Origin: Trileptium ribeirensis
Lineage: Eukaryota > Nematoda > Enoplea > Enoplida > Thoracostomopsidae
NCBI GenBank assembly: GCA_030248225.1
Contig: JASANE010012344.1
Coordinates: forward strand, 1-64,000
DNA length: 64,000 nt
Direction of reading: 5' to 3'
Part shown: in pieces, positions 6,479 through 30,911 of the stretch
How positions within the stretch are numbered: the stretch's first letter is position 1
Layout of the letters: every line of letters begins with the position of its first letter
The notes under the pieces: model-generated
Database searches by the model: none
Told to the model about the DNA's origin: nothing
Seen by the model: only the letters and a program-made list of their open reading frames with translations
Program-made: the position numbers and the translations under genes

Positions 6479-6853
6479 ATGGACTCCAACGTTAATCATG
6501 ACGGAGACGTGGAAACCAATGACTTCCTTGGCTGGACTGACGGACCTATGGAAGACGACATACGTGCCAGGCCCCGACGTGCCGCTGGCACCGGTGAGCG
6601 ACCGCTCACTCCTCCGCCCCGACCGCCTGGACAATCGCGGCGAGGAGAATCCTCCGAGTCGCCTGGACTGGACACAAATACTGCAAATGCTATCCTGCAC
6701 CACCTGACTACCCAACCGGCTGGTCCTCCAATGATCCCATTGAGAGACATGCCACTTTTGATGGGAAACCGGGAGGCCAGGACTTTGAGGACTGGGTTCG
6801 AATGTATAATCGTCTCGCCAACGCCAATGGTTGGGACGATCGGCGCAAATTAA
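6479..6853 (+). CDS. gag: Gag, N-terminal piece (frame broken from the main gag frame)
   Basis: The chosen start is the ATG at 6479, which has a good Kozak context (ACCCATGG) and is followed by a plausible disordered Gag N-terminus rich in Pro, Arg, Asp and Glu. The frame stays open to 6853. Similarity to Gag, however, moves to the next frame at about 6757: upstream residues read RDMP here, while the typical FDG and DFEDW capsid-start motifs are read in the other frame. That is a one-base shift in the -1 direction. The site lies inside gag rather than at a gag/pol border, so I take it as a mutation or sequencing indel rather than programmed frameshifting. An upstream in-frame ATG at 6461 or nearby is possible but has weaker context. 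Confidence 0.65.
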   Translation: MDSNVNHDGDVETNDFLGWTDGPMEDDIRARPRRAAGTGERPLTPPPRPPGQSRRGESSESPGLDTNTANAILHHLTTQPAGPPMIPLRDMPLLMGNREARTLRTGFECIIVSPTPMVGTIGAN

Positions 6854-9800
6854 TTTGCGTTCCAGCACTCTTGCGTGGACCGGCAAGGGAGGCCTTTGAG
6901 GGCCTTCCAGCGGGGAAACGCCAAACCTTTCTAGGACTGGTGGCCAACTTACGTTTTTTGTTTTCGTCATCTCGCCGTCCTGAGAAATCGTTGTCAGGAC
7001 TGTGTACTAGACAACAAGGAGCTAATGAACCCGTAGCAATGTACGGATTGGAATTACAGAAGTTGTGTGATCGCGCTATTCCCGACATGGAAGACGAGCA
7101 AAGGGACACGATGCTTCGCATGTTTTTCCAAAGAGGCTTACGACCTGAGGTGCGTAGGCAGGTCCTTAATCAGATCCATGAGTGTGAAACATTTCGGGAT
7201 TCCGTGGGTGTTGCCAAGCGATATGAAGACGCTAGCGCTGCCTGCCCCGAACCAGACGCGCCCGTCGCCAGCAAGCCTCGTGCTAAAACTGTAAACTCAT
7301 TGCTTGAGGAAGGAGGTGAAGGCTTGATCACACAGCTTCAAAGTATGATGGAGGAGCACCGCAAGGCGAACAACAGTAGCAGTGATACAATAAGTCGGTT
7401 GCTGGATGTAATTGATAAAAGGGTCGAGAACACGCGCCAGCTTAACGCTCTCGCGCCGCCGTTTGTGCCCGGCTCACCCGCTGCGCCGCCGTGCTTGCCA
7501 ATACCGCATATTACTTGCTACCGCTGCGGAGAACCAGGTCACGTCATGCGCGAATGCCCATATAACGTGCGTTATCCGCCTGCTGCCATGAATGGCTCAG
7601 CGCGTAATATCGACCCAGCCCCCGTATACGCATCTGGAGCCGCGCGCCGAGAGCCAGGGCAGCAAGGACCAAGAAACGGTGTGGGTATATACCCACGCAA
7701 CGATAACTATAATGCGGGCCGAGGCGGCCCCCCGCCACCGTGCCGACAAGCCGAAAACGGAAATGGATATCGGAATAATTCCGGGTGGAACAATCCACCC
7801 AATGCGGGAATGCGACCTACTGGCCCGAATCAAGCGGGACCGCAATATGGTCGTCCACCGCCGGGATTTGCCAATAATACTCGCGGAAATGATAACTATA
7901 ACAACCGGCCGGCACCGGCCTATGGGTATCAACGAGCCCAAAGCGAACGACCCCCACCTAATAGAGGCATGGGGTCCCAGCAGCCGCAGTCTGGCCGATT
8001 TTACTCACTGGACGACAGTAATCGAAATAGCGGCGCTGTACCGCGCCGGCGATATCAATTAAATTGTAGCGCATCGCAAGGTAATGGAAATAGAGAACCA
8101 AGCCCAGCTACCACTCATCGATTGGAAGTGCTCAGCCGTGAACTCGGTATGATTCAGGGTAAACTAGGACATAGTGAACCGACTGGACGGGTGAACGCTA
8201 TCGCGACCACTGACGAACCATTGTACGATGATGACGGATACTTGATAAACAGACACGATGACTTGGACGATTTTGAGACTATGGAAGGACTTGTTGAGAG
8301 ACACCTGAACGTGATCACGTCCACTTCGTGGGCTGATGCCGCGCGTCTTCCACGGAGCCGTGATCTAGTTCAGGGTATGGACAGCCCCGAACTTATGGAG
8401 TTTGGTCCTCGGGACTTGGACGACGAACCATACGGAAATGAGCTCGCTAACAGTGTAAATAGTAAGGAAAATACAAAATACAAAAAAGAGGGATTTCTGG
8501 GTGAGGGATTGTCTATGTTGTGTGTGGACGCACCCAGCGCGGGTGTTGATCCACTTGTATATATGTCCGCGAGCGAATTGAATGGCGAACGGCGAGGCGA
8601 GCGATCGACTAGTCAATCGAACTGCCCGGCCATGCGTGGGTCCGGTATGAACGCACGAACTTTAACCGCAATGGAAGATAGTGACGGAAGTATGGAAATT
8701 TGTGAGGAAATGGAAGATGGTTGTGTTCAAAATTATAGGTTGAGAGATTATAAGGGAAGTGTTGAATTTATTACCGGTACGCCCCAGGGAATCACCTCAA
8801 GGGGGAATTCCGGGACCCCCAGCTCTTTGGAAATGATTGCAGAGATTGTGAGTGAGGATGATGTTGTTGTATTTGAAGAGCCATTGTTATTATTTTCCTC
8901 CTCTGTGGCTGGCCATCCGTGTGTTGAGAGTGTTGATGTTGATGATTCCGGCAGGGAAGCCGATGATGTTGATATGGCTCAGGAAGAATTGGATTTATTC
9001 GGGTCGCCGTGTGAGGCACCCATGGAGTTTTTAGAGGTCAGCGAACGACCAGGGACGAGGGAGGCTAGGTTGGACGATGAAGACGTCTCATCAGGGCCGC
9101 CTAGCCCTAGTTCCGTTCTAAATTATAGGTCGAATGATGTAGTATGTGGGCCGGACCGCCGCGCGGGTCGTCCCTTGTGTGATGATGAGAATTGTGTGTC
9201 GTATGAGTGTATTGACTTGCCTAAGTTAGGACGCGCTTATAGCCTTAGTGAATTATTGGAAGATGATGATGGAAGTGATGTTGATGTAATTGAATGCTAC
9301 TTCGAACCGGCGAAGTATGCTACTAATGGACTTGAGGTGACTTTCCCGACCTCATTGGCAAGGGTTTCCACGGTCATTGGGTCCTTCCTTGATGCTGACC
9401 GGGGCCGCCCTTGTCACCCGTACCCAAGCCGAGGTAGCGACGGGTTCGCGGCCGCTTGCGCCGATGAAGCGGGTATGATCGTTGGGGCTGAAAGTATTGC
9501 CCGGGGTCTGCCCAGGTACGGGGATGTAGATGGCAGGGTGGCAAATAAAGACTGTCCTTTACATTGTGAGGCTTCCGTCGCGCCCACCGTCGTTGAAGCG
9601 CGCAGCGACGTGACTTGCAATGAGCTAAGTTTTTTCAATAAATCTTGCGATGAAGTCAGCGTGAAGGACAGCGCTGAGTGTGTTGAAGTTGTTGAATTGA
9701 ATGAACTGAGGGAGTCGGATGAACTCCTAATTGAACAAAACGGATCCGTAGCGAGCAATGCGAACTATCTTAGCGAAGCGAAAATGTGTAACTTACATCA

Positions 9801-11223
9801 GGGTACCCAGCAGGAGACTGATCACAGTGGAAATGAACCAGGGAACGAGCCTGGATACGGCGTGACTGCTGCGCCAGATGAGTCTAATGGTAGGTATGAT
9901 GAGTACAGTGATAGTGAGATGGATGAGGAACGCATGCTGGATGATGAGGAATTTTGGGCCAATTGGGTGGATCCGAATGCCGACTGGTACAGACGCGAAT
10001 CCAGCCCTGACGCACGAGAGTGGCATAGTGAAGGGGTGTGGGAAGTGCGTCGCGAAAACAACAACGAACTTCCGCGTGCACCATCAGATGATGGTATTGA
10101 TTTAAGCTTGCGAGCCAGCCAATTGTCTGTCCGTTCTGAGGAAGGAGATGGTGCTGCCGGAGGAAGTGATCTAGACGAAGGCAGCGATAGTAGCAGTATC
10201 GCTACGGGAAGTGTGAACGAGCTACGTTCGGATCCGCTGGTCGAAAACGTTCGTGGAGACCCTATCGAATGGACGCCTTGTATGTGCCTGGGTAATTTAG
10301 GTAGCTCCACTGATACATTGGCCGACATTTCCAGCGATATATTGGGACCCGTCGAAGAGGCGCCAAGTGTGCCCTCGGGTAATTCGGGCAACCCAAAGGA
10401 AACAGGTACGACCACTGAGGAATCCGTCGAAGGGAGACCATGTATGTCCCCGGGTAATTCGGAGGAATCAGTGAACTCGATTGGTGAGGACTCGGACATG
10501 TGCATGGGACATGAGAACTTGCTTAACTTTATACGAGAATCTAGCGATGGATGGGTACACCGACTTGACGAACAACTATTGGACATGTCTGGACTTTGTC
10601 TTCCTGACAATAGGCCGATCGAACTTGGACGAGTTAGAGCAATGACGGACGAGGAACGTAACCGAATTCTCGGGACTGACACATTGTTCACTATGACTGC
10701 AAGTCATACCGAGACCGCAGCTTATCAATTCTCTCGCATCGAATTGGCTGAGGATGCGCGTAAAGAGCCAACTGAAGAACTAATACCAATTAACTTTAGG
10801 GCTAGTGAAATCAATGCTGACTTCGGACAACCGTTAGCATTACAACCGCAGGCTCTCTTTTATCGGAGAGTAATAATTGTAATGGAACAACTGAACAATT
10901 TAAGCCGACTTTTTGAGCTCCGTTTTGAAGTTAGCACTCGCCCCACCTTACAGCGGGACGCCGCCATGCTAAGCAGTATACTAGGTATGGCTTCTCCAAT
11001 CGGGCACTGCATGACGGGGATGTATCTTGGTCCCGTAACTCTTGCCTCGTTGGAATCTTTCATAGAACTGGTGGGCCAATGCGTGAATGGCCACACGCTC
11101 CAGCAGGTTATTGAGAGAGAATTTGAGGTAGAGTTGAGTAGGGACCCGGTATTCCGACAGTGCCAGGAACGCCATACAAAAGATTCACGGGATATAGGTT
11201 CGGGTTGCTACTTTTTCGGTTAA
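6802..11223 (+). CDS. gag: Gag polyprotein: capsid, CCHC nucleocapsid and a very long acidic extension
   Basis: This is the structural protein that assembles the particle and binds genomic RNA. Residues 1-180 resemble the retrotransposon Gag capsid domain; homology starts about 15 codons before this first ATG. A zinc knuckle C239-x2-C242-x4-H247-x4-C252 (nt 7516-7557) marks the nucleocapsid. Residues 265-425 are rich in Gly, Asn, Pro and Arg, as in RNA-binding disordered tails. Residues 430 to about 1300 are strongly acidic (runs of Asp and Glu) and contain no family I recognise. The last 150 residues look folded (hydrophobic helices near 1355-1450) but are also unknown. At 1473 residues it is about three times the usual Ty3/gypsy Gag. 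It ends in TAA at 11221, and env follows in another frame. The gag identity is firm. The role of the acidic part is unknown. Confidence 0.85.
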   Translation: MYNRLANANGWDDRRKLICVPALLRGPAREAFEGLPAGKRQTFLGLVANLRFLFSSSRRPEKSLSGLCTRQQGANEPVAMYGLELQKLCDRAIPDMEDEQRDTMLRMFFQRGLRPEVRRQVLNQIHECETFRDSVGVAKRYEDASAACPEPDAPVASKPRAKTVNSLLEEGGEGLITQLQSMMEEHRKANNSSSDTISRLLDVIDKRVENTRQLNALAPPFVPGSPAAPPCLPIPHITCYRCGEPGHVMRECPYNVRYPPAAMNGSARNIDPAPVYASGAARREPGQQGPRNGVGIYPRNDNYNAGRGGPPPPCRQAENGNGYRNNSGWNNPPNAGMRPTGPNQAGPQYGRPPPGFANNTRGNDNYNNRPAPAYGYQRAQSERPPPNRGMGSQQPQSGRFYSLDDSNRNSGAVPRRRYQLNCSASQGNGNREPSPATTHRLEVLSRELGMIQGKLGHSEPTGRVNAIATTDEPLYDDDGYLINRHDDLDDFETMEGLVERHLNVITSTSWADAARLPRSRDLVQGMDSPELMEFGPRDLDDEPYGNELANSVNSKENTKYKKEGFLGEGLSMLCVDAPSAGVDPLVYMSASELNGERRGERSTSQSNCPAMRGSGMNARTLTAMEDSDGSMEICEEMEDGCVQNYRLRDYKGSVEFITGTPQGITSRGNSGTPSSLEMIAEIVSEDDVVVFEEPLLLFSSSVAGHPCVESVDVDDSGREADDVDMAQEELDLFGSPCEAPMEFLEVSERPGTREARLDDEDVSSGPPSPSSVLNYRSNDVVCGPDRRAGRPLCDDENCVSYECIDLPKLGRAYSLSELLEDDDGSDVDVIECYFEPAKYATNGLEVTFPTSLARVSTVIGSFLDADRGRPCHPYPSRGSDGFAAACADEAGMIVGAESIARGLPRYGDVDGRVANKDCPLHCEASVAPTVVEARSDVTCNELSFFNKSCDEVSVKDSAECVEVVELNELRESDELLIEQNGSVASNANYLSEAKMCNLHQGTQQETDHSGNEPGNEPGYGVTAAPDESNGRYDEYSDSEMDEERMLDDEEFWANWVDPNADWYRRESSPDAREWHSEGVWEVRRENNNELPRAPSDDGIDLSLRASQLSVRSEEGDGAAGGSDLDEGSDSSSIATGSVNELRSDPLVENVRGDPIEWTPCMCLGNLGSSTDTLADISSDILGPVEEAPSVPSGNSGNPKETGTTTEESVEGRPCMSPGNSEESVNSIGEDSDMCMGHENLLNFIRESSDGWVHRLDEQLLDMSGLCLPDNRPIELGRVRAMTDEERNRILGTDTLFTMTASHTETAAYQFSRIELAEDARKEPTEELIPINFRASEINADFGQPLALQPQALFYRRVIIVMEQLNNLSRLFELRFEVSTRPTLQRDAAMLSSILGMASPIGHCMTGMYLGPVTLASLESFIELVGQCVNGHTLQQVIEREFEVELSRDPVFRQCQERHTKDSRDIGSGCYFFG

Positions 11224-11261
11224 CGAGGAAGGTGGACTTATGACGGTACGTTGAGTACTAC

Positions 11262-12644
11262 GTGCGCGTCCATCCTCCGGATGGATACGTCGCACCGCAC
11301 TGGCCTTTCTACGTTGGCATTCAATCAGCCAGAATGCAGAAAACTTTCCGCGAGGCGAACCTCGAGTTACATGACCTCTTGTGCGAGGCGCCTTACTTGA
11401 TCGAATTCATTTACCAAAACCAAGATACACGAGGTGTTCCAGTCAACTCCTTTGTTGACCAAGTAATAAGCAATATGGAATTTGACGACGAAACCCACAG
11501 ACTTGCTCGACTAGTACTGCTCAGTGCACGCTTGAGACTGTTGCGACGCCCCGACATTGCCGCACTGCTTGAGACAGAAGGAGACACGTCAGTCGGATTA
11601 AAGTTAGGTAGGGATCGCATAATCTCGAAACTATGCTTGTTCCCGGACGATGACACTAACTGTTCCGTCCCGAATTTGGACGAACAATTAAACACGGCAT
11701 TGGCCGCTTACCTCGACTCATCTGACGAGGAGTCGGAGGATAACTCCAATAGCGACTCCGCCCAGCAAGAAAGCACAACTGAGTCGAGTGACACGGAAAC
11801 GAGGGACGAGGAAACCAGAAGCGACATTTCGGGACAAATTGCGGATAACAAGACCATGAGGGAACACGATCGAAACGGGGTACGACCCCCTTCACCGAGC
11901 CTCAGTAATGGCCTCGGCCATCCTTCAGGTATGTGGAGTGTCTGTACAATTCTATTGTTACTTTGGCTCTCAGCGCTTAGCTCAACACGCGCAACGCTCT
12001 CGCCATTTAGTGACTCAATCTCGCGCTTAGGTGCTTTTGTCAATCGACAAGTGGGAGTGGTCATCGAGCCCCAAGGCTTGGTGGTCACCTCTGACCAAAC
12101 AACGCATTTGCCAGTGGTATTGCAGTTATCACTTCGCGACTGGGAACGCAAGTCCGATCCGTATGTGAGCAAATTCTGTCCACCCTACGAAGCAAACGGG
12201 TCATGTCGCGCTGACTGTTTCCGAAAGGTCAATTGCACCGAATATCCACAGTTACATAAGACCTTAAGAGCCTTGGAGCAAGAACTGGATGACGCCTACC
12301 ATGGCGTGCTGGACACCAATTACTATTCGCTATTGGTGCATTCTTTCTGCGTCGCAAACGAACAACTATGTGACCTCACGAGTAAAAGAGAGAAGCGCTT
12401 TGCCAGCTTAATTGCTGCCGCCGCAGGTGCCGTCTCAGGTTTCTTGGGCCTAGGAATGGCGTTTTCCAATGGAGTACACATTAATAATGTGCGTAAACAG
12501 GTAACTGTCCTCGAGAAATTCATGCGTGAGACTAACGATGTCTCCTTCCGAAACACAAAAGCCATAAGGCAGCTGACCCGAGCAAATGAGGACATTTACG
12601 CATTCCTGCACCATAGCATGCAAGAGGTGGTCTCTATGATATAA
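11262..12644 (+). CDS. env: Envelope glycoprotein, N-terminal part, with an upstream unknown domain
   Basis: The frame is open from about 11244; the first ATG is at 11334. The first 220 residues form an unknown, mostly helical domain ending in a Ser/Glu/Asp-rich stretch (about 11710-11840). A classic signal peptide begins at the ATG at 11931 (MWSV, then a Leu-rich core). A Cys-rich ectodomain follows, then a furin-like KREKR site (nt 12384-12398) directly followed by an Ala/Gly-rich fusion-peptide-like segment and a heptad-like helix. This is the layout of class I, F-like envelopes of errantiviruses and baculoviruses: a membrane protein that would mediate fusion at the cell surface. A TAA at 12642 interrupts it, and the same frame continues beyond. 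Lying between gag and protease is unusual. Env identity rests on architecture, not on a database match. Confidence 0.75.
   Translation: MRVHPPDGYVAPHWPFYVGIQSARMQKTFREANLELHDLLCEAPYLIEFIYQNQDTRGVPVNSFVDQVISNMEFDDETHRLARLVLLSARLRLLRRPDIAALLETEGDTSVGLKLGRDRIISKLCLFPDDDTNCSVPNLDEQLNTALAAYLDSSDEESEDNSNSDSAQQESTTESSDTETRDEETRSDISGQIADNKTMREHDRNGVRPPSPSLSNGLGHPSGMWSVCTILLLLWLSALSSTRATLSPFSDSISRLGAFVNRQVGVVIEPQGLVVTSDQTTHLPVVLQLSLRDWERKSDPYVSKFCPPYEANGSCRADCFRKVNCTEYPQLHKTLRALEQELDDAYHGVLDTNYYSLLVHSFCVANEQLCDLTSKREKRFASLIAAAAGAVSGFLGLGMAFSNGVHINNVRKQVTVLEKFMRETNDVSFRNTKAIRQLTRANEDIYAFLHHSMQEVVSMI
11929..11930 (+). promoter_or_regulatory. Candidate 3' splice site just before the env signal peptide
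   Basis: The bases before 11929 read TCCTTCAG with a modest pyrimidine content. An exon starting here would have the env signal-peptide ATG (11931) as its first start codon. The same spot also reads CAG/GTATGT, a donor-like sequence, so polarity is ambiguous. The inference pairs it with the donor at 6322. Confidence 0.3.
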
Positions 12645-12869
12645 CAGGTTAGGTGTGCCGATCAGAAAGAGATCGCACACGTGCACCACCAGCTGATAGA
12701 TCACATCCTTCGAGCCAACATGCGCTCGTCGGTACAAGCTATAATGGAATCCATGCTGAATGGCGAACTATCTCCCGCCGTTATCGATGTAGTCATGCTA
12801 CGACGGTTATTTTCCATGGATCCACGCATTTCCAAGACTATCCTCATGCGCGAGCCTAGTCTAGCTTAA
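12645..12869 (+). pseudogene. env: Envelope middle segment between two in-frame stops
   Basis: This 74-codon stretch is in exactly the same frame as the pieces before and after it. It is bounded by TAA at 12642 and TAA at 12867. It reads as amphipathic helix with heptad-like spacing, as expected between the fusion peptide and the rest of a class I fusion subunit. The two stops are the only breaks in a frame that otherwise runs from 11244 to 15173. Both stops are followed by CAG, a weak resemblance to leaky-stop context; simple nonsense mutation is the plainer reading. Confidence 0.65.
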
Positions 12870-12884
12870 CAGTTTCGTCGCGTC

Positions 12885-15176
12885 ATGCCTGTGAGCGTAG
12901 ATTTCACCGCATTCCGCTTTGGATTCATATTGCAATTACCATTGCCGATGCGCAATGATGTACGACCATACTTTCGGATCTATAACACTGGTTGGAATGC
13001 ACCTGCCACGCTGACGCAGCTGAGACTGCCGCTTCCTCAATACGCTGCCCGTTTAGGGCACATTCGCTTCGAATCACTAAATCTGGGAGCATGCAAGCAA
13101 AGACCAGGAATCGCTTTCTGCGAACCATACGCGCTAATAACCGATCATAGCACCAACTGCTTAGAGTGGATTATTGCAGGAGAACACGTGCCCGAAACTA
13201 TTAAACACACATGCAGCAACCGCTCATTGATAGGCCCACTTGCCAATGACACATCCGTGCACACGACCATACAAGGTGTACTAATTCGGACTAGTGAACA
13301 TGAGGTCATATTGACAAATCGGAGACAACTAGCTCACGTGACGATGGGTAAGACAATAAAAGTACCACCTAATGGAGTCTTGTGGTTTCCGCACGGAAAC
13401 TACACTCAGTTAGTCATAGGGTCGATTGTGCTCACTAGTATGCTGAAGCCCGAGAAGATCACAATAAAATTCGGACCAAATATCACTATTGACCGGCTAT
13501 CCGGTACCAAACTAAGACCTCTGACTTGGGACTCACTTGACAACGCCAAGGCTATAAATTTGCGGGTCGCGCAGATAGCTAAAGATCAAGTACGTAGCGT
13601 CCTTAATCTCCCCGCCGTGGAATATACAGGATTCTTGCCCTACTTCCTCCTTACCGTCGTTGTAGGACTGATCAGCCTGATTTATTTCATGACCAAATGC
13701 AAGCTCCCGCCTAAATACGGGCACTACATTCCCCGATGGTTCCCATGTCGTGGACGATTAATCAGGACCGATAGCAAGCCTAGGAAAGTGATTAGATGGA
13801 CTAGAGCGAAACCTCGATTACCGAGTGCCCCACCCGCAGAAGACGACTTTCCTCACACAGACAGAACTTCACCGACTGAGGTCACGGTTGGGCCTTCGGG
13901 AACGCCGCGCGTGTCCGTCGCGTCTAGCCGTGCCCCACGTCGTTCGAACAGACTATTGACATCACGAAACTCATCGGAGGAAGAACTCGTTTTTATAGAG
14001 GACGACGAACTATTTGTCGCGCTCACTCGCGACTTACGTCGTGGACCTCGCCAAGGCGTGTTCACTAGACAATTAAACACGATGAACGCAGGTAACACCC
14101 CACTACTTATCAATGCAACCATACTTGGTACCCCAGTTATGACACTTGTAGACACTGGAGCCGACGTCTCAATTATGTCCCAAGCCCAAGCTGCCCGTTT
14201 GGGACTGGTCCCTCGCGACACTAACACTACCCGCATAGTATCAGCTACACAACAAGAATTAACAATAAGTGGAGTAGTGAAAGCACCGATCACAATAGGA
14301 TCGCTAAGTACACCGTGCGACTTTCAAGTGACAACCGACACTCCGTACGAATGTATCTTAGGCACTGACTTTATGGCATTACTAGCATATGTAGCCATAA
14401 ACTTCAAAGATCGTTGCCTGGATCTATCTAACGGAACCGAGAATTGCTCGGCACCTTTCGCCGATCAAGGGGATTACCGACCCCCAGTCATCAACGTAGT
14501 TACTAGGAAATACACTCAGGTACCACCGAATACCGAGTTGTTCATCAACGCCATCCCAGAAATTACTCAACCTCCGACCGGTCTAGGCTTATTTGTGCCT
14601 GGCCCCTTTCTTAGGGACGTTGCTATCGCTCACTCTCTGGTACTTACTGGTCAACGCATGATCCCGATAGCGCTAATGAACTTTGGGAACTTTCCCGTTG
14701 CAATACACGCCGGACAGACAATAGGACATATTGAGATGCTTGACGATGACGAGGTCGAGTTCCTATATGACAGTAACAAGCGTTTGTTACAACTTGACCC
14801 TCCAAGACGCACTAAGCAATGCAACAATATCGGGGTTACCCGAGACAATGTTGTACAAATCATAAGTGAACAAAGGAAGACCATTGACACCGAGCGATCC
14901 ATACAAGTCTTGAGTAAAATAGACTTTGGACAAACAACCCTTAACCCTTTCGAGCTTAAACAATTGAAAACAACCATATCTGAAAATGCAGACATATTTA
15001 GTGTACACCCATTCGATCTAGGAAGATGCGGGGTACACCAACACAGGATAGTCACTGGAGACGCACGACCAATTAAGCAGGTACCCTATCGCCTGGCTCA
15101 TTCACTACGAGAACCCTTACGTGAGGAGTTAAACAACATGGTAGAGGCAGGTCTAATAACGCCGTCAGATTCATAG
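12885..15176 (+). CDS. env-pro: Envelope C-terminal part fused in frame to aspartic protease and the start of reverse transcriptase
   Basis: Residues 1-245 are an ectodomain with several Cys and N-glycosylation sequons (NRS, NDT, NYT, NIT). Residues 250-269 (nt 13632-13691) are a strong hydrophobic membrane anchor, followed by a basic Cys-containing tail. Without a stop the frame then gives a retropepsin-like protease: D423-T-G-A (nt 14151), a flap region, and an ILGTDF motif near residue 490. The end (from about residue 715) is the N-terminal part of a Ty3-type reverse transcriptase, up to a TAG at 15174, where the rest continues in another frame. Known gypsy elements carry env after integrase, so an env-protease order is odd. 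In principle the anchor leaves the protease on the cytosolic or virion-interior side. Domain calls are firm; a native Env-Pol fusion is inference. Confidence 0.82.
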   Translation: MPVSVDFTAFRFGFILQLPLPMRNDVRPYFRIYNTGWNAPATLTQLRLPLPQYAARLGHIRFESLNLGACKQRPGIAFCEPYALITDHSTNCLEWIIAGEHVPETIKHTCSNRSLIGPLANDTSVHTTIQGVLIRTSEHEVILTNRRQLAHVTMGKTIKVPPNGVLWFPHGNYTQLVIGSIVLTSMLKPEKITIKFGPNITIDRLSGTKLRPLTWDSLDNAKAINLRVAQIAKDQVRSVLNLPAVEYTGFLPYFLLTVVVGLISLIYFMTKCKLPPKYGHYIPRWFPCRGRLIRTDSKPRKVIRWTRAKPRLPSAPPAEDDFPHTDRTSPTEVTVGPSGTPRVSVASSRAPRRSNRLLTSRNSSEEELVFIEDDELFVALTRDLRRGPRQGVFTRQLNTMNAGNTPLLINATILGTPVMTLVDTGADVSIMSQAQAARLGLVPRDTNTTRIVSATQQELTISGVVKAPITIGSLSTPCDFQVTTDTPYECILGTDFMALLAYVAINFKDRCLDLSNGTENCSAPFADQGDYRPPVINVVTRKYTQVPPNTELFINAIPEITQPPTGLGLFVPGPFLRDVAIAHSLVLTGQRMIPIALMNFGNFPVAIHAGQTIGHIEMLDDDEVEFLYDSNKRLLQLDPPRRTKQCNNIGVTRDNVVQIISEQRKTIDTERSIQVLSKIDFGQTTLNPFELKQLKTTISENADIFSVHPFDLGRCGVHQHRIVTGDARPIKQVPYRLAHSLREPLREELNNMVEAGLITPSDS

Positions 15177-15208
15177 TCTACATCACCAAAAGTGACGGTA
15201 CCTTACGG

Positions 15209-16639
15209 TTGTGCGTCGACTTCCGTAAGCTCAATGTAGTGGCAGAACGTGACTTATACCCGTTACCCCGTATAGATGACATATTGGGATGTCTTAGAAA
15301 CACCAAGTTCATGTCCAGTTTAGATCTTAATAAGGGCTTCTGGCAATTAGAACTGGACCCCGAGACCAAGGAGAAGACCTCCTTCGTCACTGTTCACGGA
15401 CAGTACGAGTACAACGTTCTGCCATTTGGACTGAATTCTTCACCAGGAGCCTTTCAAAGGTGCATGTCAATCATATTAAAGGGTTTAGAATGGGAACGAT
15501 GCCTCATCTACATAGACGACATGCCGGTCTTTTCACCCACATTCGAACAACACCTAGCGGACTTAATTATAGTATTTGACAGGTTCCATAAAGCCAATCT
15601 CAAACTAAAACCTTCAAAGTGCCAATTTGGACAGAAACAATTAAAATACCTAGGACATATTATTAGTTCAGAGGGAGTCAAACCCGATCCCGAGAAAACC
15701 GCTGCAATCGACAATTACAAACGACCGGAAACCCTCAAACAATTACAAAGCTTTCTAGGACTTGTAGGATACTACCATAAATTTATACCACACTACTCTG
15801 AAATTTGCGAACCACTCAACGCACTTCGACGAAAGGACAGTGAATTTAAGTGGACACCGCAATGCGAGGAAGCATTCGGAAAACTACGTAAGGCATTAGT
15901 GCAAGAACCACTACTCATATACCCGGACTTTTCTAAACCTTTCATACTCCAAACGGACGCTTCTGGATATGCCTTAGGGGCTGTACTTTCGCAAAAGACT
16001 GACAAAGGGACGTTACCTATCGCCTACGCGAGTAAGTCCCTCGTGGACTACCAACGACGATACCCCGCCATAGAGACTGAGGCTCTTGCCATTAGATGGG
16101 CCGCCCTACACTTCCGACACTACCTACTCGGACACGAATTCCATGTTGAAACGGACCATAAGCCACTTAAAGCACTATTCGAGAGACCGCCGCGAAATTC
16201 GCGACTAGCTCAATGGCGTAATGAATTACTAATGGAATTCGGTGGCTTCAACATTGAATATAGACCAGGTAAGGCTAATGCCAATGCAGACGGACTTTCC
16301 CGCGATCCCCGACATGACGTAGAATTTTCTTACTCTTCGGACGAAGCGGAATACGACGAACAGGACCATCCTCGAATGGTTGCTGTAGCTGTTAAAGGAC
16401 AGGATCGTGGTAAAGGCAAAGCTCCAGCTAAACCGCCCCGTCGATTTCCCACTGAGGAAGTTTGGAAACGACTTACTCGACAACTCATGGGACTTCCATC
16501 GGACGCTCCTGTTACCCTACCACCCGAGTACGTTAGAGAACGCTTCTATGTTCGGAGGACCTGGTTACGATCCCTTACCGGATCCGACACGTTTCATCTT
16601 CTATGGGGACATAGACGACCCATGGCCCGAAGGAGTTGA
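15209..16639 (+). CDS. pol: Reverse transcriptase and RNase H (pol, frame-shifted from its N-terminus)
   Basis: This region copies element RNA into DNA and degrades the RNA strand. The palm and fingers motifs are in order: CVDFRKLN at the start, LPFGLNSSPGAFQ, and the active-site Y101-I-D103-D104 (nt 15509-15520). The thumb/connection follows (SFLGLVGYYHKFIP). RNase H follows with QTDASG (D250), the TEA glutamate (E291) and TDHKPL (D316). Catalytic residues are all present. The frame begins just after a break: the preceding RT part ends at a TAG (15174) in a different frame, and residues VYITKSDGT are read here just upstream of the first ATG/GTG-type codon. After about 16540 the similarity leaves this frame for that of integrase. 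Order and motifs place it in Ty3/gypsy (Metaviridae). Confidence 0.93.
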   Translation: MCVDFRKLNVVAERDLYPLPRIDDILGCLRNTKFMSSLDLNKGFWQLELDPETKEKTSFVTVHGQYEYNVLPFGLNSSPGAFQRCMSIILKGLEWERCLIYIDDMPVFSPTFEQHLADLIIVFDRFHKANLKLKPSKCQFGQKQLKYLGHIISSEGVKPDPEKTAAIDNYKRPETLKQLQSFLGLVGYYHKFIPHYSEICEPLNALRRKDSEFKWTPQCEEAFGKLRKALVQEPLLIYPDFSKPFILQTDASGYALGAVLSQKTDKGTLPIAYASKSLVDYQRRYPAIETEALAIRWAALHFRHYLLGHEFHVETDHKPLKALFERPPRNSRLAQWRNELLMEFGGFNIEYRPGKANANADGLSRDPRHDVEFSYSSDEAEYDEQDHPRMVAVAVKGQDRGKGKAPAKPPRRFPTEEVWKRLTRQLMGLPSDAPVTLPPEYVRERFYVRRTWLRSLTGSDTFHLLWGHRRPMARRS

Positions 16640-19600
16640 AGTACCCGGGAGACGGACAACTGTCGCAGGACCGCCAGAACCTACTGGTGAGCCGACCCAC
16701 GGATCATCTTCAGCACCCGAACCACCCGACAGCCCCCCGCAGCCTCAGGAACCCCCGACCGCTCCAACACCACCTGCTCCTGGTGCGGCGAGTGAGAGCT
16801 CGACCCGTGCCACGGCTGGTACACCTGAACCCGCTAGACCACAGACGCTACCGACAACTACTAGACAGAGATACGGAGGTTTACCCGAAGTAGAGGAATT
16901 TGACACATTAATTAAGGTTGCTTACGCATGCGGACCACGAATACAATTACAACGCCCTGAACAGGTTTATGACACTGGAGAACACATCTACCTACCACAC
17001 TTCCAACAATACGAAGGGAGGAACCTTCTTAACTATTTACCATACATTCAACGCCGAGATAAACAATTCGGTCCTATTTGGTGGTACTTTCATACACGAC
17101 AGTCGCCCGCCGACGAAAAGGCAGCGACCGCCCTCAAAGTGGAAGCCCACCATTACAGGCTCTGCCCCGACACTGCCATTCTATACTTACACCCCATCAT
17201 GCCAAACGACCATAGACCAAAATTATGCGTACCCAGGTTGCTCATACGACAAATACTCAAGCATGAACACGACACACTGTTTGGCGGACATCCAGGTAGA
17301 GATCGACTGCTGAGCAAACTTAAACAATTCTATTATTGGGAGACCATGGGAAAGGATGTGGACGAATATGTCAAACCATGCGTACTCTGCCAGCGATCAC
17401 GCAACTTACCACAAAATGTTCGAGCCGCGCTCGGAGAGAACCCGTTGGCTAGTGCACCCATGCATCGCATGTTTGTTGATATACTGGACACTCGGGTGTT
17501 ATCCCGCAACGGAAACAGGTACGAAATTGCTTTTATCGACCAGTTCACAAAACTAGTAATTGCCGCTGCTTTACCGGACCAAACCGCTAAGAGTGTAGCC
17601 AAGGTCTTCGTCGAAGACGTGGTGTGCCGCTACGGCGCACCCGAGGAACTAGTCTCAGACCGAGGAGGATGTTTCGTCTCCGAGGTAATGGAAGCCTTGT
17701 GCGCTAGACTACATACTTTCAAACGCGAGACCCTGAGCTACAACCCGAAGGCAAATGGAGAAATCGAGCGCTTTAACCGTACACTACTATTTCTCCTAAA
17801 GGTAGCATTGCCCGAAAAGGACCATACTACATGGGACGAAGTCCTGCCGTATTGTATCATGTCCTACAATTCATCAGTACACGCTTCCACGCACTATCCA
17901 CCATTCATGCTCATGCACGGATTCCAACTCCGAGTACCGGGTGGAATCGAAACACAAACTGATTGGGGACGCTATCCCGGAGCGGAAGCATATCGCGCTA
18001 ACGTGCAACGCTGGTTGGCCACCATTAGAGACCAAGCCTATCGGTCCATGCAATCTGCTAGGGAATACAGGAAACGCTATTACAACCGCAGGATCAAAGT
18101 TCCGGACTACCGTGTTAATGACCATGTATGGGTCTATCGATACTACACTACACCAGGATTGTCGCGCAAACTAGAGCGTAGGTGGTGTGGACCATATCAA
18201 GTCACCAAAATAATGCTCCCCTGCATTTGCGTTAAACTCCCCGGACAACCTAATGCATCCGATCATGTCGTTCACATAAATCGCACCAAACCATGCTATC
18301 GCCCGCTAAATAGCTTCCCCGACGTGGCTGATTTACTCAAAGCAGTTCCTCCCGCATATATTGAGGCTGCGCTACAGGAACCCGGCGAAAGTATCCTCGC
18401 TGACATATATTTCGCTAGGGAATTACAGGCTGCTGATCCAGAAGCAGTAGACCGGTTGCGCCAGGAGATTGATGGTGCTTCCGACGTCGCTAGTGTAGAA
18501 ATTGGAGAGCCTAACTTAGAATACACGCAAGCACAAGCAGACATCCACCACGCCGCAGTTGAAAAGCTGACCATTCAGGCTCAAAGCTCACAAAACAGGC
18601 TTCCCCTTTGCGACCCCGATAGAACTCCAGATACCGAATGGCCCGCTATATCACAAGAACTCGCTACCCAGGACCCCGCTAAGTTACCCTACGCGCTTGA
18701 TAAACCACCAGGTACTTTCTCGCCTGAGTATGGACAACACACCGCCCCAGTAACTCTACGAGAGCAGGAACGAGTTGTTCGGACTGATGAGCCTACAAGG
18801 CCCCTGACGGTGAAACGCTCAGACAACGGTCGTGCACTACGACCATTCAATGTAAATGACTTAGGTCTCGTGGAATTACGCGCTTCACAGGACCCGGGCG
18901 AAAACTTGCCCCCCACTCCAGAACAAGCCGCATCCCCAACTGCAGCAGTCGAACATGCTGTCCAAACTTCAACGCTTACGCCTGCCCAGCGTCGAGCTGC
19001 AATCGCCACTCAAACATCCCGCAGTCCTCAGACACAACACTTAATGACCGAATCAGACAAGCCAGCTACACCATACCACACCTATTATGAGCCTACAGCG
19101 TCTTACGAACAACCATATTCTATACCTCGGCAGGCATACTCCACCCCACCTACGCCACTTCCACATACTCCCCTAATGCCACTGGGATTCGAAGCTACAA
19201 TAGAGGACTATGTTCCAGACGAATGGCACACACCATATCACACCCTTCCAAGACCACAACCCGTACAATCCGTCCCAATAACCAGCCAACCTCCACTGGA
19301 ACCCGCGCCAACACCGAAACCTAAGCCTAAACCACGACGAAAGCCAAATAAGGTTCCCGCGCCGACTAGTGAACAAGCATCATCCATAAGCTCGGAGACT
19401 ACCTCACCGGAAACAGCCGATTTTCCGACACCACCCCACCGGTGGAAAATCCCTCCCCTATTGTCACCCCTAGGGGAGCGTAGAACTAAGGACCCACAGG
19501 TACCATCCTTCGGTCGATGGACCATCCAGAGACAAAATGAGCTAGCACAGTGGGAATGGGAAATGCAAGAAATAAGGAGGAAGAGAGAGGAAGCCGCCCG

Positions 19601-20573
19601 CGCCCGAGGAGAAATACAGGATGCAACTGAACTAATGGAATACCTAAGGGGATCTCCCATACAATACATCCCATCGGAAGACCAAATAGCAGCCGACGGG
19701 ATTGTAGAAGAATTTGTTGAAAGTTTAGCTCGACAACGAGAAGCAAGTAAGCAGAGCACAAGTAAACAACGTCGACCTTCCGAGTCTTCGGAAGGTGGTC
19801 GACCGAAACGATTACGACCACGGACTGTAGACAAGGACGATGAGACAATATCAACCATTGGCGAATCAACCAAGGGCTCCTCTACCGGAAGGAAGGGAAG
19901 AGCGCCGCCGCGTAGCGCTCCCTCCACCCTCAAGAGAGTTCTGAGTCGACCATCGCGCGCCAAACCACGTCGACAAACCCCCGCTAGAGCCCAATCACAA
20001 GTTAGTTGGGAAGACGAGGAGGATGAGATGCCTCTAAGTCAACTTTTACCGGGACCTCGCCGGAGGCCCCACTTCGAACTCGACCCTCCAACAGAGGAGA
20101 GCGAGGGATCTCCTGAGATGGGACCCTTTGCACCCGAAGTTAAAGAGAGGGAAGAACCCCCACAACCTACTCGCCGACAGCCGCATAGACAAGCCAGGGA
20201 CCGTTGTCGTTGGTATGAAGAATACATACCATACGGAGAAGAAGCCCGAGTCGTAATGCCACGTTTGGACACCCGACGCTTAAAACCCCCGACTACGACA
20301 CCAGCTCGACGGACTATACCCCTCGCTCCACCGACTCGGCATCGTGACCCCGTCATGCCGATGGATTATCCATCTGGTAGTGCTCGTGCACGGCACGACA
20401 TGTTCGAACCTTTTAGGGACATCTTTGACGAACAAGACATCGAGGACATGTTGTCCGCACATCCGGACTTGGAACCCGACGAGGACAGTGGACAAAGACA
20501 ATTACGACCCGAAGATGTCGGACTGGAGGTGGTCCGACCTCCCAGACAACCGCCTCGTGAGAGACGGTTGTAA
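16548..20573 (+). CDS. pol: Integrase with GPY/F module and about 750-residue Pro-rich/basic C-terminal extension
   Basis: This region inserts element cDNA into the host genome. I start it at the ATG at 16548, where the true frame takes over from the RNase H frame; the frame itself is open from further upstream. Residues 30-110 are a Pro-rich linker. The zinc-binding module is H241-x6-H248-x29-C278-x2-C281 (nt 17268-17390). The catalytic triad is D311, D371, E407 (D-x59-D-x35-E). A GPY motif at residue 548 marks the usual Ty3-type C-terminal module. Beyond about residue 590 the protein carries on for some 750 residues: Pro-rich, then a charged coiled-coil-like stretch, basic clusters (for example RPKRLRPR) and acidic patches, with no recognised fold. 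Overlap with the upstream frame is 92 bases. The integrase call is firm; the function of the extension is unknown. Confidence 0.92.
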   Translation: MFGGPGYDPLPDPTRFIFYGDIDDPWPEGVEVPGRRTTVAGPPEPTGEPTHGSSSAPEPPDSPPQPQEPPTAPTPPAPGAASESSTRATAGTPEPARPQTLPTTTRQRYGGLPEVEEFDTLIKVAYACGPRIQLQRPEQVYDTGEHIYLPHFQQYEGRNLLNYLPYIQRRDKQFGPIWWYFHTRQSPADEKAATALKVEAHHYRLCPDTAILYLHPIMPNDHRPKLCVPRLLIRQILKHEHDTLFGGHPGRDRLLSKLKQFYYWETMGKDVDEYVKPCVLCQRSRNLPQNVRAALGENPLASAPMHRMFVDILDTRVLSRNGNRYEIAFIDQFTKLVIAAALPDQTAKSVAKVFVEDVVCRYGAPEELVSDRGGCFVSEVMEALCARLHTFKRETLSYNPKANGEIERFNRTLLFLLKVALPEKDHTTWDEVLPYCIMSYNSSVHASTHYPPFMLMHGFQLRVPGGIETQTDWGRYPGAEAYRANVQRWLATIRDQAYRSMQSAREYRKRYYNRRIKVPDYRVNDHVWVYRYYTTPGLSRKLERRWCGPYQVTKIMLPCICVKLPGQPNASDHVVHINRTKPCYRPLNSFPDVADLLKAVPPAYIEAALQEPGESILADIYFARELQAADPEAVDRLRQEIDGASDVASVEIGEPNLEYTQAQADIHHAAVEKLTIQAQSSQNRLPLCDPDRTPDTEWPAISQELATQDPAKLPYALDKPPGTFSPEYGQHTAPVTLREQERVVRTDEPTRPLTVKRSDNGRALRPFNVNDLGLVELRASQDPGENLPPTPEQAASPTAAVEHAVQTSTLTPAQRRAAIATQTSRSPQTQHLMTESDKPATPYHTYYEPTASYEQPYSIPRQAYSTPPTPLPHTPLMPLGFEATIEDYVPDEWHTPYHTLPRPQPVQSVPITSQPPLEPAPTPKPKPKPRRKPNKVPAPTSEQASSISSETTSPETADFPTPPHRWKIPPLLSPLGERRTKDPQVPSFGRWTIQRQNELAQWEWEMQEIRRKREEAARARGEIQDATELMEYLRGSPIQYIPSEDQIAADGIVEEFVESLARQREASKQSTSKQRRPSESSEGGRPKRLRPRTVDKDDETISTIGESTKGSSTGRKGRAPPRSAPSTLKRVLSRPSRAKPRRQTPARAQSQVSWEDEEDEMPLSQLLPGPRRRPHFELDPPTEESEGSPEMGPFAPEVKEREEPPQPTRRQPHRQARDRCRWYEEYIPYGEEARVVMPRLDTRRLKPPTTTPARRTIPLAPPTRHRDPVMPMDYPSGSARARHDMFEPFRDIFDEQDIEDMLSAHPDLEPDEDSGQRQLRPEDVGLEVVRPPRQPPRERRL

Positions 20574-20574
20574 T

Positions 20575-21831
20575 GTTCAAATCACTCAGGAAACATGCCT
20601 AGAAAGCTCGAGCTCCAGCCACCAAACTCCCTCAAGATCCGCCACTAATGGCGATGAATACTATTGCAGGAAACGCCGGATCAAATCATTCAAGGACATG
20701 GAACAAATTCCGCAACCTCGTGTACCGTACTATACTATCAACTACGGTGCGCCGATTGAAACGTTCCTGTCTAAAGGCACACACTGGCCGGAACTCTCAA
20801 ACATGGCTCCGTTAGGCCAAACCGTAAGCCAGTACCCCATCGAATACGCCTCGACGGAGCAAGGATACCAGCTCCTCGTCACCTATTTATTCGACGAGGA
20901 ACAGGCGAAACAGGACATATCGGACCTGAAAATGGGAGCTCGAGACGTGAAAGCCATCTCCCGTAGGAACAAACAAAAGTTCCTGGACCCAGAAACAACC
21001 GAGCGCCTCCGCCCAGTACTCCCTCACCTTATGCGGACGGTGCTGCTGGAAAAATTTTAAATCCCTCGGTTCAGAGACGCCCTACTGGCCACCGGATTTG
21101 CCCAGTTGCTCGAGGCGAACAGGTCCGATTCCTTCTAGGGAATTGGCCTAGGGCCAGAGGACATCACATTTGGCAAACGACCGCGACCATGCCACAATAT
21201 TATGGGTCGCCTATTGAAGGAGGTTCGATCCTTCCTCCGACATAATGTCGCCACTTGGCCAACGGTATTGATCCTGGGCGATTCGTTAGCGGCGCCCTTG
21301 GTCAATATGGCCGCTTCGCGTGGGTGGTTCGCCATGGCGTGGCCAGGAGCCACCCTGCAATTTCTAGTCCGATTGGCGACGTGCATTGCGACACCGCAGA
21401 CTAAAACGGTCATGATTCTTGGCGGATATAAGACGGCCCTACGAACCAAACCACATGAAGGTCGTTTGCTGGACACGCCCAGCAAAGTTATGCGTCGAGT
21501 GCGCCGGTACATATGTTCATTCGACTATCTTCTCAGCGATGGAGCACGAGCAATTATCGCCCCGCCGCCTCCACGTTGGAACATCGGACAGGACAATACG
21601 GTCGAATGGCACGATGAATTCACTAAACTATTTCAAGACATTAAATGGCAATTTCCCGACAGACTACGGAAATCGTCGATGCCAGATTATCCCCCCGAAC
21701 TAACCGAATTAGGTGCGTAGGAAGCCAATACCGGCCCCAACGAAGTTGTGGAGCCGTACATTGCTGAGCCCTACCTCGGATACTTCCATAGATGGGTTCA
21801 ACAGAACCTAGTGCCCAACAAGTGGGAGTAA
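20575..21831 (+). pseudogene. NADAR-domain protein fused to an SGNH/GDSL-like segment (three in-frame stops)
   Basis: One frame is open from before 20575 to the TAA at 21829 except for TAA 21058, TAG 21136 and TAG 21718. The likely start is the ATG at 20698. Nt about 20740-21235 match the NADAR (DUF1768, YbiA-like) fold in order: a LSNMAP motif, a STEQGYQ helix, VKAISRR, LMRTVLLEKF, then (after a stop) FRDALLATG, LLEAN, SDSF-stop-GIGLG where the family normally has Trp at the stop, and MGRLLKEVR. NADAR enzymes remove ADP-ribose from guanine in nucleic acids or act on related nucleotides. The Lys usually seen just after the YQ motif is not evident. Nt about 21245-21720 begin VLILGDSLA, a GDS-type block I, with a later Gly-rich strand and a PPPPRW loop, so an SGNH hydrolase-like fold is possible. 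The gene follows integrase, where env would normally be, and has not been described to me for such elements. NADAR confidence is high, SGNH low. Confidence 0.78.
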
Positions 21832-26437: not shown

Positions 26438-26980
26438 GAGCAAAGGAAATTTGGGGAACCTCGAAAAGACTAAACAAATTCTAAGTGATTTCAGCTTGAG
26501 CATAAGGTATTGGCACTCCGAAAGGACCGATTTTATTTCAATCTTCACGCGATTTTGGCCAGTATTTGATTTGTTTGCCAACAGGACGGTTAATGCCAGC
26601 ATTACCTAAGGATCAGCTACCGGCATCCCGAGCCCTCGACAGCCCCTCATGACTAAACTTACTAGGCGTTTGTAAAAGAGACTGTCTCATCATGTTTGCT
26701 TCAAAATTGTCTCTGTTCCACTATTAAGTTCACCGACGCTCCGAATAGTACGTAGCAGTGGTTAAGCTCGGCGGTAGTGAATAGGAAAACTCGCCGTACT
26801 AAAACGAACCGTCCGCATGGTTAGGGACCACATTTCCACGCTATTCCCGCGTCCAGAAGCACGGCACCGTGCCCCGCCCTTAAACAAAAAAAATGGTCTA
26901 CAACATCCTCTTTTCAATAAATGAAAATCGCGACCATTCGCGACTCGTTTTGATCCCCACCCGAGCAAGTGCAAAACCCC
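26438..26980 (+). other. Unique segment between the inverted arm and the right LTR
   Basis: About 540 bases found once in the window; their counterpart on the left, if any, lies outside the window. It would contain the polypurine tract if the LTR begins near 26970, where a TG precedes CAAAACCCC. The bases before it (CCGAGCAAG) are only weakly purine-rich. No gene seen. Confidence 0.5.
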
Positions 26981-29148
26981 GCTTTCCTTTCAGAGCGACT
27001 TGATCGCTGAGTTTAAGCAATTTTCTATTTTACGACTGGTTGCCCGTTAGGCTATGTACTATGTAGGCCCTTGCTTTGAGTTTTACTTTTTCTCTCTCCT
27101 TTTTCAGTTTCCCTTGTTAGGTTTCGATGCTGCACGGGGGATTCAAGCCCGCTGCAGATTTTTCCGTATTATCCACTCGACTATCGAGTTCTGGTAAATT
27201 TCACTAAAATTTTAGTGATAACTCGACTGCACAACTTCGACAGTGCAGCCGAGACACTGTGCAATTTCGATGTGTACAGTGTATTAGGATCTTAGGATGA
27301 GTTCGATATAGAGAGAGGACAGCAAAGAGAAAGGCGACAAAAGGAAACAAGGGAAAAGAAAAGAGAAAGAAACCAAACAAAGAAACAACAGCAAAGAAAA
27401 ACAAAAGGGGGGCGCAAACGCGTCCGCGGGCGAAATACCCACGCCCGCTTGCCCGGTAGAGTCGCAGAAACAAATCGACCGGCCCAGCCTGTTCCCCCTA
27501 GGATTCTACCGAAACTGTTAGAAAAGGGGAACTGAGATCGTCGAAAAGTTACTATAGGCAACTCCGCAAAGTAAACCCAACGACGCCCCGGACAAGTGTG
27601 CAGGCTTTAACCGTTACTCGACCAGCCAAAATCGACCCCCACCGCCACAAACCAACCATACGTGGACTTTTAGGACTCGGGACAGTCGAGCTCGGCTTGA
27701 GACACTGAGAGAGAGACGATTATCAATTAGAGTAAGGCATGCCTCTAGGGCAAAACGTTGCGACTTAGTCTATGGGGATAATAGGCCAGATTTGTAGGAT
27801 CGAGAGTGCACGCCGGACAGAGTTTTCGTACTTCCGACTGTTATATCAATGCTTTGCCTGTAGCAACATGATTTCTAATAGCCGCCGGTTGGCGTTATAG
27901 GTGATTCTTTGTTGGTAACCATGTAGTACCCGAAATGATTTTGTTTTGCATATACTTGCCCGTGCCGACACTGTTACACTATGTTTAGGTCCGTATCCCG
28001 ATTCATGCCCTTCTCTATCGAAGTTGGTCGGTAACTTTGGGTGACCGCATTAGTGCATTGGCTGTACTTAGGCTGCTCTAAGACGAACTTTTCCCTTCCC
28101 CGCATAACGCCGTACCTCGTTTGAAGCGAATTCAGAAGCACGCCAGAACACATAACCCGAGCGATAGCTGACTGAGTTAACGTTCAACGTTGAACGACTC
28201 GGGTATAGATTTTGGTCCGGTATTTCCGGGAACGCGTTCGCTTGCGCCGCCTCGCACACCGACTAGACGCGGACGAGGGAATGAACGGGTACGACGGTCC
28301 CAAAGTTTTATTTGTATAATGCTTCAATTGTTCGTACTTGACCTGTATTGTACCTACCTTAAAATAAAACGTTGAAAATCATTCATCGTGTCCAGTGTTG
28401 TTCCTACTCAAGCGTAATAAGCGCGTCCAAGTGGACGGGCCGACCCTTCGTGCCACGTTGAGGACACAAATACACCAAGCCCTGACACGAGCGGTCCGCC
28501 GCCAATAAAGATATATTCGTGTACTGACAGTGCAGCGAGAATGGTCCGCAAAACTATCTATTGAACTCACTCGTGTAATAATCACACTCACGCCAGAGAT
28601 CAAATTTATTAGGAAAACTTTATCACTCACTATCGACACAGTTAAGTTAACACATTCCAAAAATGGTAGTCCGACGTTAAACTATCAGGGCATGCCGGGA
28701 CCCTGTGGGGGCCACATGGCTACAACGGACAAAGTGTTCGACCAGAAATAAACTCAGGGGAACTCAAAATTTACCTAGGAAACCTAAAGTATCACGCGTT
28801 TTCACTTTAAATTTCGCTAGACAAAACAACTTCACAACTTCCTTTAGGTTAGGACAGGGAATATCGGCTAGACATCATGACCTGTGAGCAGGCTTCGGTG
28901 TCAACCTCCCTGGGGGACCTCAGCGATCATACCAGGATACTAGACACGTGCGCAACCAATCGGGCGGGGTCCGAACACACCCCGTGAAGCGCGCCTGCGG
29001 CCTGCTAAGCTCCGTAACTTCTTGGGTCTGACCAAGGAAAGTGACTAAATTACAAAACTTAGGGTCCACCCTTGAGGTTATGATAGCCGGGGTCGTATGG
29101 GCATGGTGTTAGGAAGTTGCGCCATGCAGCTGCGTCACCGTTATTACA
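26981..29148 (+). mobile_element. Right (3') long terminal repeat
   Basis: Direct repeat of 2862-5028, ending in the same TTATTACA and then running into AT-rich flank that shares nothing with the sequence after the left LTR. This fixes the right edge of the element at 29148. The LTR may begin at TG 26970-26971, which would give TG...CA ends. A target-site duplication cannot be tested because the left LTR is not followed outward by host DNA. Confidence 0.82.
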
Positions 29149-30911
29149 TATATATTGAATGCTTTCCTGTATTTATATTTTTAAGAAGTTATTGCAATAT
29201 TTAAGCACGTGTTGTTTCAAAAACTTATAGGGCTTTGTTTAGGGTCCACTTTTTTCGATACCAGATGTGGTTTCCACCATTACGACTTGTAAGCACTTCC
29301 AAATGTGCGGAATTGGCGGCAGTTCGGAGATCCTGCGGTAGAACAAGAATTGATTTCTGTCCAAGTATGTCAGACCTTACACAAATTTCAGGCATTCAAA
29401 ACCTTACAGAAACGTTACCAGGTGATAAATTTTTCGATAGCAAATACTTGTAGACACGCAAATTCACGATATTTTTATACGTTACCCAGCCTAACTGTTA
29501 CACGGAGTTCTTCCGCATGGTATCGAATCTAAGAGAAGTGACAATTATATTTTAAAAGTATAAAACGATACTGAAATCTTCAAAAATTTACTTAAAATAA
29601 TCCAAATATGCTTCAGACACATTCAAATAAATTTCAAACGTATGCATATGTTTAAATAAAAATTTTCTCTAGTTTTAAAGTATCTTCAAGGTTGTTATTC
29701 TCGAATTGGCTGCTTGTCGAATGCCCAGACCCACAGACAGAAGAGCAACTGTACTGAAAAGCGAGTGGAGATGGAGAAATTTCAAGACGGGGGTGGGGGT
29801 CAAATTTGGTTATATAAATAGCAAAATGAATGTGACAAGTCTTCTCGATGGCAATATGAGTTCAAAGCAATAGCATGATAGGGTTAGCTCGTCCTATTGC
29901 CTCCCGTATCTATGAGTCTACAGATGACATCGTTTATTATATATTCACTTGTTTTATCAACTTAGTTTTCGCTATCAGCTGGTTTTTGAAGTATAAATGT
30001 AAATTTAGCACATAATTATTTCACTGTAATACAGTATTACTAGCCTCTATATACAGTAGAGAACTAAAATATACATTAGTTTAGTTATAATATATACACA
30101 AGTTTAGTTAGCATAGTAAATATAACTGTTTTAACATAACTAATAAGAATAACTGTATTTACAAACCAAAACACGGCGTAGAAGGCTACGTGTAATTGAT
30201 TATGCAGGTTTTGGTTGTATAACAAAACACTTGTGTAAACTTAGGCAGTTTCCGGTTCAACCCCGATCCACAGAAATTTAGGTTGTAGTCGAAGAAATCT
30301 TTTTAATAAAATGTTGCGGTTCCGTTGTACAAGTGTAGAAGCTATTGGGATAAATACTGGAAAAGCTAAATTCTTATTTCAAGTTTTCTCTACGTAAACT
30401 AAATATTTGTAAATTTGAGTCGTGTAAGTAAGCAAACTAATTACAACAGCGTTCAATCATAGGCGATCAATGTTTCAATAAAATATAATCTGAAAATCGA
30501 AAGCTAGATTTTAGCAATAGCTACGTATGCATAATCAGCATATTAGAATATTTCGATAACGATTCTGTTTTCGTATTTTGTCAGACTGTGCATCATCTGG
30601 TTACTTTGCTGATGCATTGCCTCGTCTTGTTATAGGCACACTTTCCTTCTTTCGGCTTAGCAATCGAAAATCCATAGTATGATTATATGAAAAGGACACA
30701 AAGATTCTGGCTGCTATTCCGACGTATCAGATGCTAAAAATAAGTATTGATTTAGACAGGTTAATGCCCAAAATAGTGATTTAGGGTTTTGTTGCACTTT
30801 AGAAGCTTTTAAAAACAACACCGACATTCTTGTGAAATAAATATTGCGCATTAAATCGCTATAAATTTGACAAATAAATTTAGTAGAGTTTGGGTATATT
30901 GAATGTTCTTA
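29149..30911. other. AT-rich flank without recognisable gene
   Basis: Host-like DNA directly right of the element. Short frames at 29235-29532 have no clear family. No RNA gene or repeat array seen. Confidence 0.5.

Follow-up and report, generated by a model that had tools for sequence, protein, structure and literature searches.

A conserved NADAR gene downstream of integrase in a giant Ty3/Gypsy element family of the nematode Trileptium ribeirensis

A retroelement NADAR domain has a published precedent in brown algae, where a Gypsy lineage of Ectocarpus, e.g., Gypsy-12_Ec32, carries a conserved domain of the YbiA family, the role of which is given as unknown in the relevant passage of the source (PMC12477816). 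According to a passage of PMC11543638, hydrolysis of guanine-adenosine diphosphate (ADP)-ribose requires a glutamate, a lysine that coordinates phosphate, and an acidic residue in the last strand, while the roles of NADAR proteins in animals are described in part of PMC11125620 as largely unknown. Here we analyze a NADAR domain within a 64-kb stretch of contig JASANE010012344.1 from Trileptium ribeirensis (positions 1 to 64,000, referred to as the window), which contains a 26.3-kb Ty3/Gypsy element, a single giant long terminal repeat (LTR) element. The NADAR domain begins a separate open reading frame (ORF) located 3' of the integrase ORF, and it belongs to a gene that is shared and maintained throughout the element family.

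A selected gene throughout the element family

A preliminary description of the window had claimed that an LTR retroelement carries the NADAR domain, a claim that is now supported at the level of the family. The host genome (687,459,628 bases in 20,229 contigs) was searched with the 1,257-base ORF region, and 40 of 656 candidates were scored. The resulting 41 rows comprised the window copy, 39 near-full-length copies, and a single partial copy (69%), which was excluded from the counts, so that the window copy and all 39 others were examined (n = 40). Beyond the window, the ORF is therefore present in at least 39 near-full-length copies with 85–92% identity, all of which contain the domain, although elements without it are invisible to this query. 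All 40 copies retain the start codon. Neither stops nor frameshifts interrupt the NADAR part in 33 of the 40 and the second domain of the ORF in 33, with both parts intact in 28. The ratio of nonsynonymous to synonymous substitution rates (dN/dS) over 780 pairs was 0.069 for the NADAR part and 0.084 for the second domain, as compared to 1.6–3.3 for two shifted control frames, and pol was directly upstream of the NADAR ORF in every copy fetched with its flanks (9/9).

Domain searches of these copies gave uniform results. All 19 open copies that were scanned, drawn from 29 long natural ORFs, matched the Pfam NADAR family (PF08719) at E ≤ 1e-12, with a best value of 3.5e-17, and none matched another Pfam family at E ≤ 10. 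The one copy shown in full scored 62.7 bits over profile positions 12–163 (cut-off 35.1). When a profile of the 19 copies was compared with solved structures, it matched 8bau, a NADAR domain-containing protein (E 4.9e-5), and 2b3w, YbiA (E 0.018). Because at least 39 further copies exist, 33 of 40 are open in the NADAR part, 19 of 19 match the Pfam family, and dN/dS is 0.069, the NADAR domain is a family-wide selected gene rather than a one-off capture.

The window copy itself is a decayed member of this family. Beyond the end of the integrase ORF (20573), the coding signal shifts frame and persists, weakly in places, to approximately 21830. The NADAR motifs that the preliminary description had placed in one frame after integrase were indeed found in a single plus-strand frame, all within 20698–21240, starting with an ATG at 20698 and interrupted by two in-frame stops. 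A Pfam match in this frame had also been anticipated, and this was borne out in the open copies and not in the window, where the first piece alone remained below threshold (E 0.017–0.028, 15.1–15.8 bits, the higher E being obtained when additional upstream sequence was included) and the second and third pieces individually gave no Pfam match. When all 2,773 six-frame pieces of the window were scored with an independent profile of 11 NADARs (YbiA and ten phage NADARs), the three pieces ranked 1, 2, and 5, and they aligned colinearly in one frame, at profile positions 10–88, 93–114, and 114–139. Residue shuffling (20,000 shuffles each of the last 130 residues of the first piece, the whole second piece, and the first 45 residues of the third) never reached the real score for any piece. 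The joint chain scored 21.8 bits, while the best of 60 dinucleotide-shuffled windows scored 9.9 and the reversed profile 6.5. Addition of eight host NADARs to the profile brought the first piece to E 8.5e-5 and the pieces to ranks 1, 2, and 4. Other searches of the pieces were negative, including NCBIfam, protein databases at E ≤ 1 (first and third pieces), and PDB sequence searches with single pieces, which yielded nothing significant; a single-sequence structure model of the first piece was uninformative (predicted local distance difference test score, pLDDT, 39.5). A broken copy with its first piece below the Pfam cut-off would speak for chance similarity, or for a chance host capture in the window copy only, but these explanations were ruled out by the shuffles, the shuffled-window and reversed-profile controls, and the 39 other copies with their 19/19 matches, and they retain a negligible probability.

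The number of stops in the window copy is not readily explained by simple decay. The divergence of the LTRs predicts that 0.086 new stops would have arisen in the NADAR part after insertion, and two were observed (P 0.0035), an excess that could reflect LTR gene conversion or chance. For all coding pieces jointly, 3.3 stops were expected and four (two in the env-like frame and two in NADAR) or five were seen, a rough comparison in that the frames were selected for openness and the fifth stop depends on where the last ORF ends. A programmed or recoded stop is not favored because the NADAR part is stop-free in 33 of 40 copies.

Active site and proposed function

In our alignments, the essential lysine of the guanine-ADP-ribose hydrolases sits seven residues after the first glutamate. 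All 11 reference NADARs have it, as do all eight other host NADARs fetched, but valine replaces it in 40 of 40 family copies, so that the element proteins depart from these hydrolases at this residue. The first glutamate (SEQ/SEH motif), the second glutamate (in the last strand, as in the YbiA subfamily), and the aspartate are retained in 40/40. A tryptophan that precedes the central helix in 10 of 11 references is also replaced in the element family; in the alignment with 8bau, its position is occupied by threonine, a residue shared by all 19 aligned copies. The valine codon of the window copy differs from the lysine codons at all three bases. Judging from the sequences, valine is ancestral in the family and does not result from decay, because it is fixed in 40 copies and differs from the lysine codons at three bases; decay as the cause of the missing lysine is ruled out by the presence of valine in 40/40 copies.

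These residues bear directly on the proposal, made in the preliminary description, that the domain undoes guanine ADP-ribosylation, which as stated does not find support. If the domain were an active hydrolase of ADP-ribosylated guanine, able to remove the modification that the host places on element RNA or complementary DNA (cDNA), this would be in keeping with a true NADAR under strong selection, in which both glutamates and the aspartate remain unchanged in 40/40 copies, and with a statement in PMC11125620 that all tested NADAR/YbiA proteins act on guanosine-ADP-ribose. However, the essential lysine is uniformly valine and the pocket tryptophan of the reference NADARs is missing, which makes this activity unlikely. 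The same family-wide losses would suit a non-enzymatic binding or scaffolding part, such as a reader of RNA or ADP-ribose, for which the first NADAR domain of nematode SNA-3, described in a passage of PMC9303266 as lacking conservation of key residues, offers a precedent. Yet the invariance of two glutamates and an aspartate across 40 copies would not be needed in a pure scaffold, and we regard this explanation, too, as improbable. Because the three acids are kept in all copies under strong purifying selection, it is likely that some function is exerted at the NADAR site.

The second domain of the ORF is probably SGNH-hydrolase-like. It contains a GDS motif, with the serine present in 37 of 40 copies, as well as a glycine in 40/40 and a histidine in 39/40, although there is no clear block-III asparagine. 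It matched no Pfam family, and its fold matches were weak and mixed with unrelated folds (model pLDDT about 51).

On balance, we lean toward the interpretation that a giant Ty3/Gypsy family of Burro-like architecture keeps a third gene, with NADAR and probable SGNH-like domains, that encodes a ribosyl-base binder or N-glycosidase of altered specificity. The retention of the ribose-facing acids, together with the loss of the phosphate contact, is the reason for favoring such a changed specificity. In the proposed mechanism, the NADAR ORF would serve as a third gene 3' of pol, kept by a giant provirus-like family, and its protein would still bind, and perhaps cleave, a ribosyl-base (N-glycosidic) conjugate via the kept acids. 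The diphosphate of ADP-ribose would no longer be gripped as it is by canonical NADARs, and the substrate or ligand would therefore differ. The protein may thus be an accessory factor acting on element RNA or cDNA, or on host ADP-ribose-derived signals. Several points weigh against this interpretation. The proposed change of specificity is deduced solely from residue identities, the SGNH assignment consists of a GDS motif and weak, mixed fold matches, and the single-sequence models are poor (mean pLDDT 51.1 and 39.5).

A fixed natural change at a residue that is essential in other NADARs, found throughout a family with a dN/dS of 0.07, permits a direct test of which functions the fold has beyond guanine-ADP-ribose hydrolysis. 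The element NADAR would likewise help to test for a role of ADP-ribose chemistry in defense against retroelements.

Element architecture and other NADARs of the host

The features of the element are collected in Table 1. Self-BLAST delimited an internal region of 21.9 kb (5030–26976) enclosed by two LTRs, whose alignment of 2,162 sites contains 26 differences (Kimura two-parameter distance 0.0121). The LTRs, together with the Pfam order of protease, reverse transcriptase, RNase H, and integrase, identify a Ty3/Gypsy element, and its Burro-like features are an internal region greater than 20 kb and an env-like region between gag and protease that shares the protease frame, with two stops between in the window copy. 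The gag-like ORF probably starts upstream in another frame (ORF 6401–6853). The env-like region is putatively assigned by its anatomy, i.e., a signal-peptide-like stretch (~11928), a furin-like site (~12408) followed by a hydrophobic fusion-peptide-like stretch, and a membrane anchor (~13632); it matched no Pfam family at cut-off, and its pieces had no significant PDB sequence match.

Table 1. Annotated features of the giant Ty3/Gypsy element, with window coordinates.
Feature	Coordinates	Strand	Evidence or remark
5' LTR	2858..5029	+	self-BLAST
gag-like ORF, 1541 amino acids, CCHC zinc knuckle	6598..11223	+	PF00098, E 4.3e-7
env-like region (putative), same frame as protease	11244..13700	+	two stops in window copy
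Retropepsin-like aspartic protease	14109..14375	+	PF13975, E 6.6e-13; residues 414-502 of ORF 12870-15176
Reverse transcriptase and RNase H	15125..16639	+	PF00078, PF17919, PF17917
Integrase ORF, long proline-rich C-terminal tail	16389..20573	+	PF17921, PF00665
NADAR domain, start of separate ORF 3' of integrase	20698..21240	+	two in-frame stops in window copy
Second domain of NADAR ORF, probable SGNH/GDSL-hydrolase-like	21241..21717	+	GDS motif 21277-21285
C-terminal tail of NADAR ORF	21718..21831	+	coding signal in frame to about here
3' LTR	26977..29149	+	self-BLAST

Several additional observations concern the element and its surroundings. N-terminal of the zinc knuckle, the gag-like ORF has a PAM2-like motif at window positions 7432–7476, which is weak and falls below the cut-off (PF07145, E 0.021). 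Transitions between the LTRs are lopsided; in 15 of 17, the 5' LTR carries T or A where its 3' counterpart has C or G, and four of these 15 are in a CpG context. The 3' non-coding region 23600–26435 recurs in inverted orientation (91%) at 1–2833, 5' of the 5' LTR, to which the inverted copy is joined via a C run, as a nested insertion or an assembly join. Two satellites with 81-bp periods and different units occupy 32604–34309 (21 copies) and 58793–61673 (36 copies). Transfer RNA and Rfam scans of the window found nothing. A search with the integrase returned 47 relatives, the best-scoring of which is 35% identical and none of which has PF08719 listed, and scans of viral contigs found no relative.

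NADAR domains are abundant elsewhere in the host genome. A PF08719 search gave 2,317 candidates, of which 150 were scored and listed over the cut-off, indicating at least 150 strong NADAR loci; the broken copy of the window is not among the loci listed. Eight loci (L012–L019) were fetched, and the neighbors of two, L014 and L015, were examined with Pfam. In both, a Pox-A32-like ATPase adjoins the NADAR domain, and L015 also has a TATA-binding protein (E 1.1e-32). These neighbors suggest that DNA-virus-like elements in the host carry NADAR as well; no report of NADAR with Polinton was found in the open-access literature. The second catalytic glutamate is tyrosine or asparagine in L012–L014 and glutamate in L015–L019, and the last tryptophan is phenylalanine in L012–L014. 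On the evidence of the alignments, the retroelement NADAR is not simply a recent copy of the fetched host NADARs, because all eight of these keep the lysine. A bolder and rather doubtful extension is that two unrelated kinds of mobile element in this host, the Burro-like retro-provirus family and the DNA-virus-like elements, both keep NADAR, and that by losing the lysine the retroelement version was re-tuned toward a ribosyl conjugate not favored by canonical NADARs. If true, such dual maintenance would be expected of a host that counters invaders by nucleic-acid or soluble modification of the ADP-ribose type.

Comparison with known systems

The element shares parts of its organization with several described systems, as far as the pertinent sections of their reports extend. 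Like the bdelloid Vesta LTR elements, it has a probable SGNH/GDSL esterase-like sequence 3' of pol, which in Vesta is a GDSL ORF3; NADAR is not mentioned in the section on Vesta (PMC5408684), and in the present element the SGNH-like part shares its ORF with the NADAR domain that precedes it. Compared by description, the element resembles the planarian Burro elements in being a giant Gypsy that has extra domains and, between gag and protease, an in-frame env-like region (PMC6431247). The extra domains of Burro include MATH, BIR, BCL2-like, ankyrin, and SUMO-like domains, and NADAR is not named in the section on Burro (PMC6431247). Another animal retrotransposon NADAR is that of Tx1 in Crassostrea gigas, a long interspersed nuclear element; Tx1, however, is a non-LTR element with NADAR in the ORF1 position, according to a passage of PMC12477816.

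The closest parallel is the Ectocarpus Gypsy lineage introduced above, which is likewise a Ty3/Gypsy lineage with NADAR and constitutes the published brown-algal precedent (PMC12477816, in the passage on this lineage). In contrast to the description of that lineage, the nematode element has NADAR in a separate ORF 3' of integrase, together with a second domain, in a giant env-like context. The nematode domain itself lacks the catalytic lysine. Several aspects of this retroelement NADAR are new, as far as could be found in the open-access literature. It lies 3' of integrase, shares its ORF with a second domain, and is carried by a giant element with an env-like region; its loss of the lysine is fixed, and the selection acting on it has been measured.
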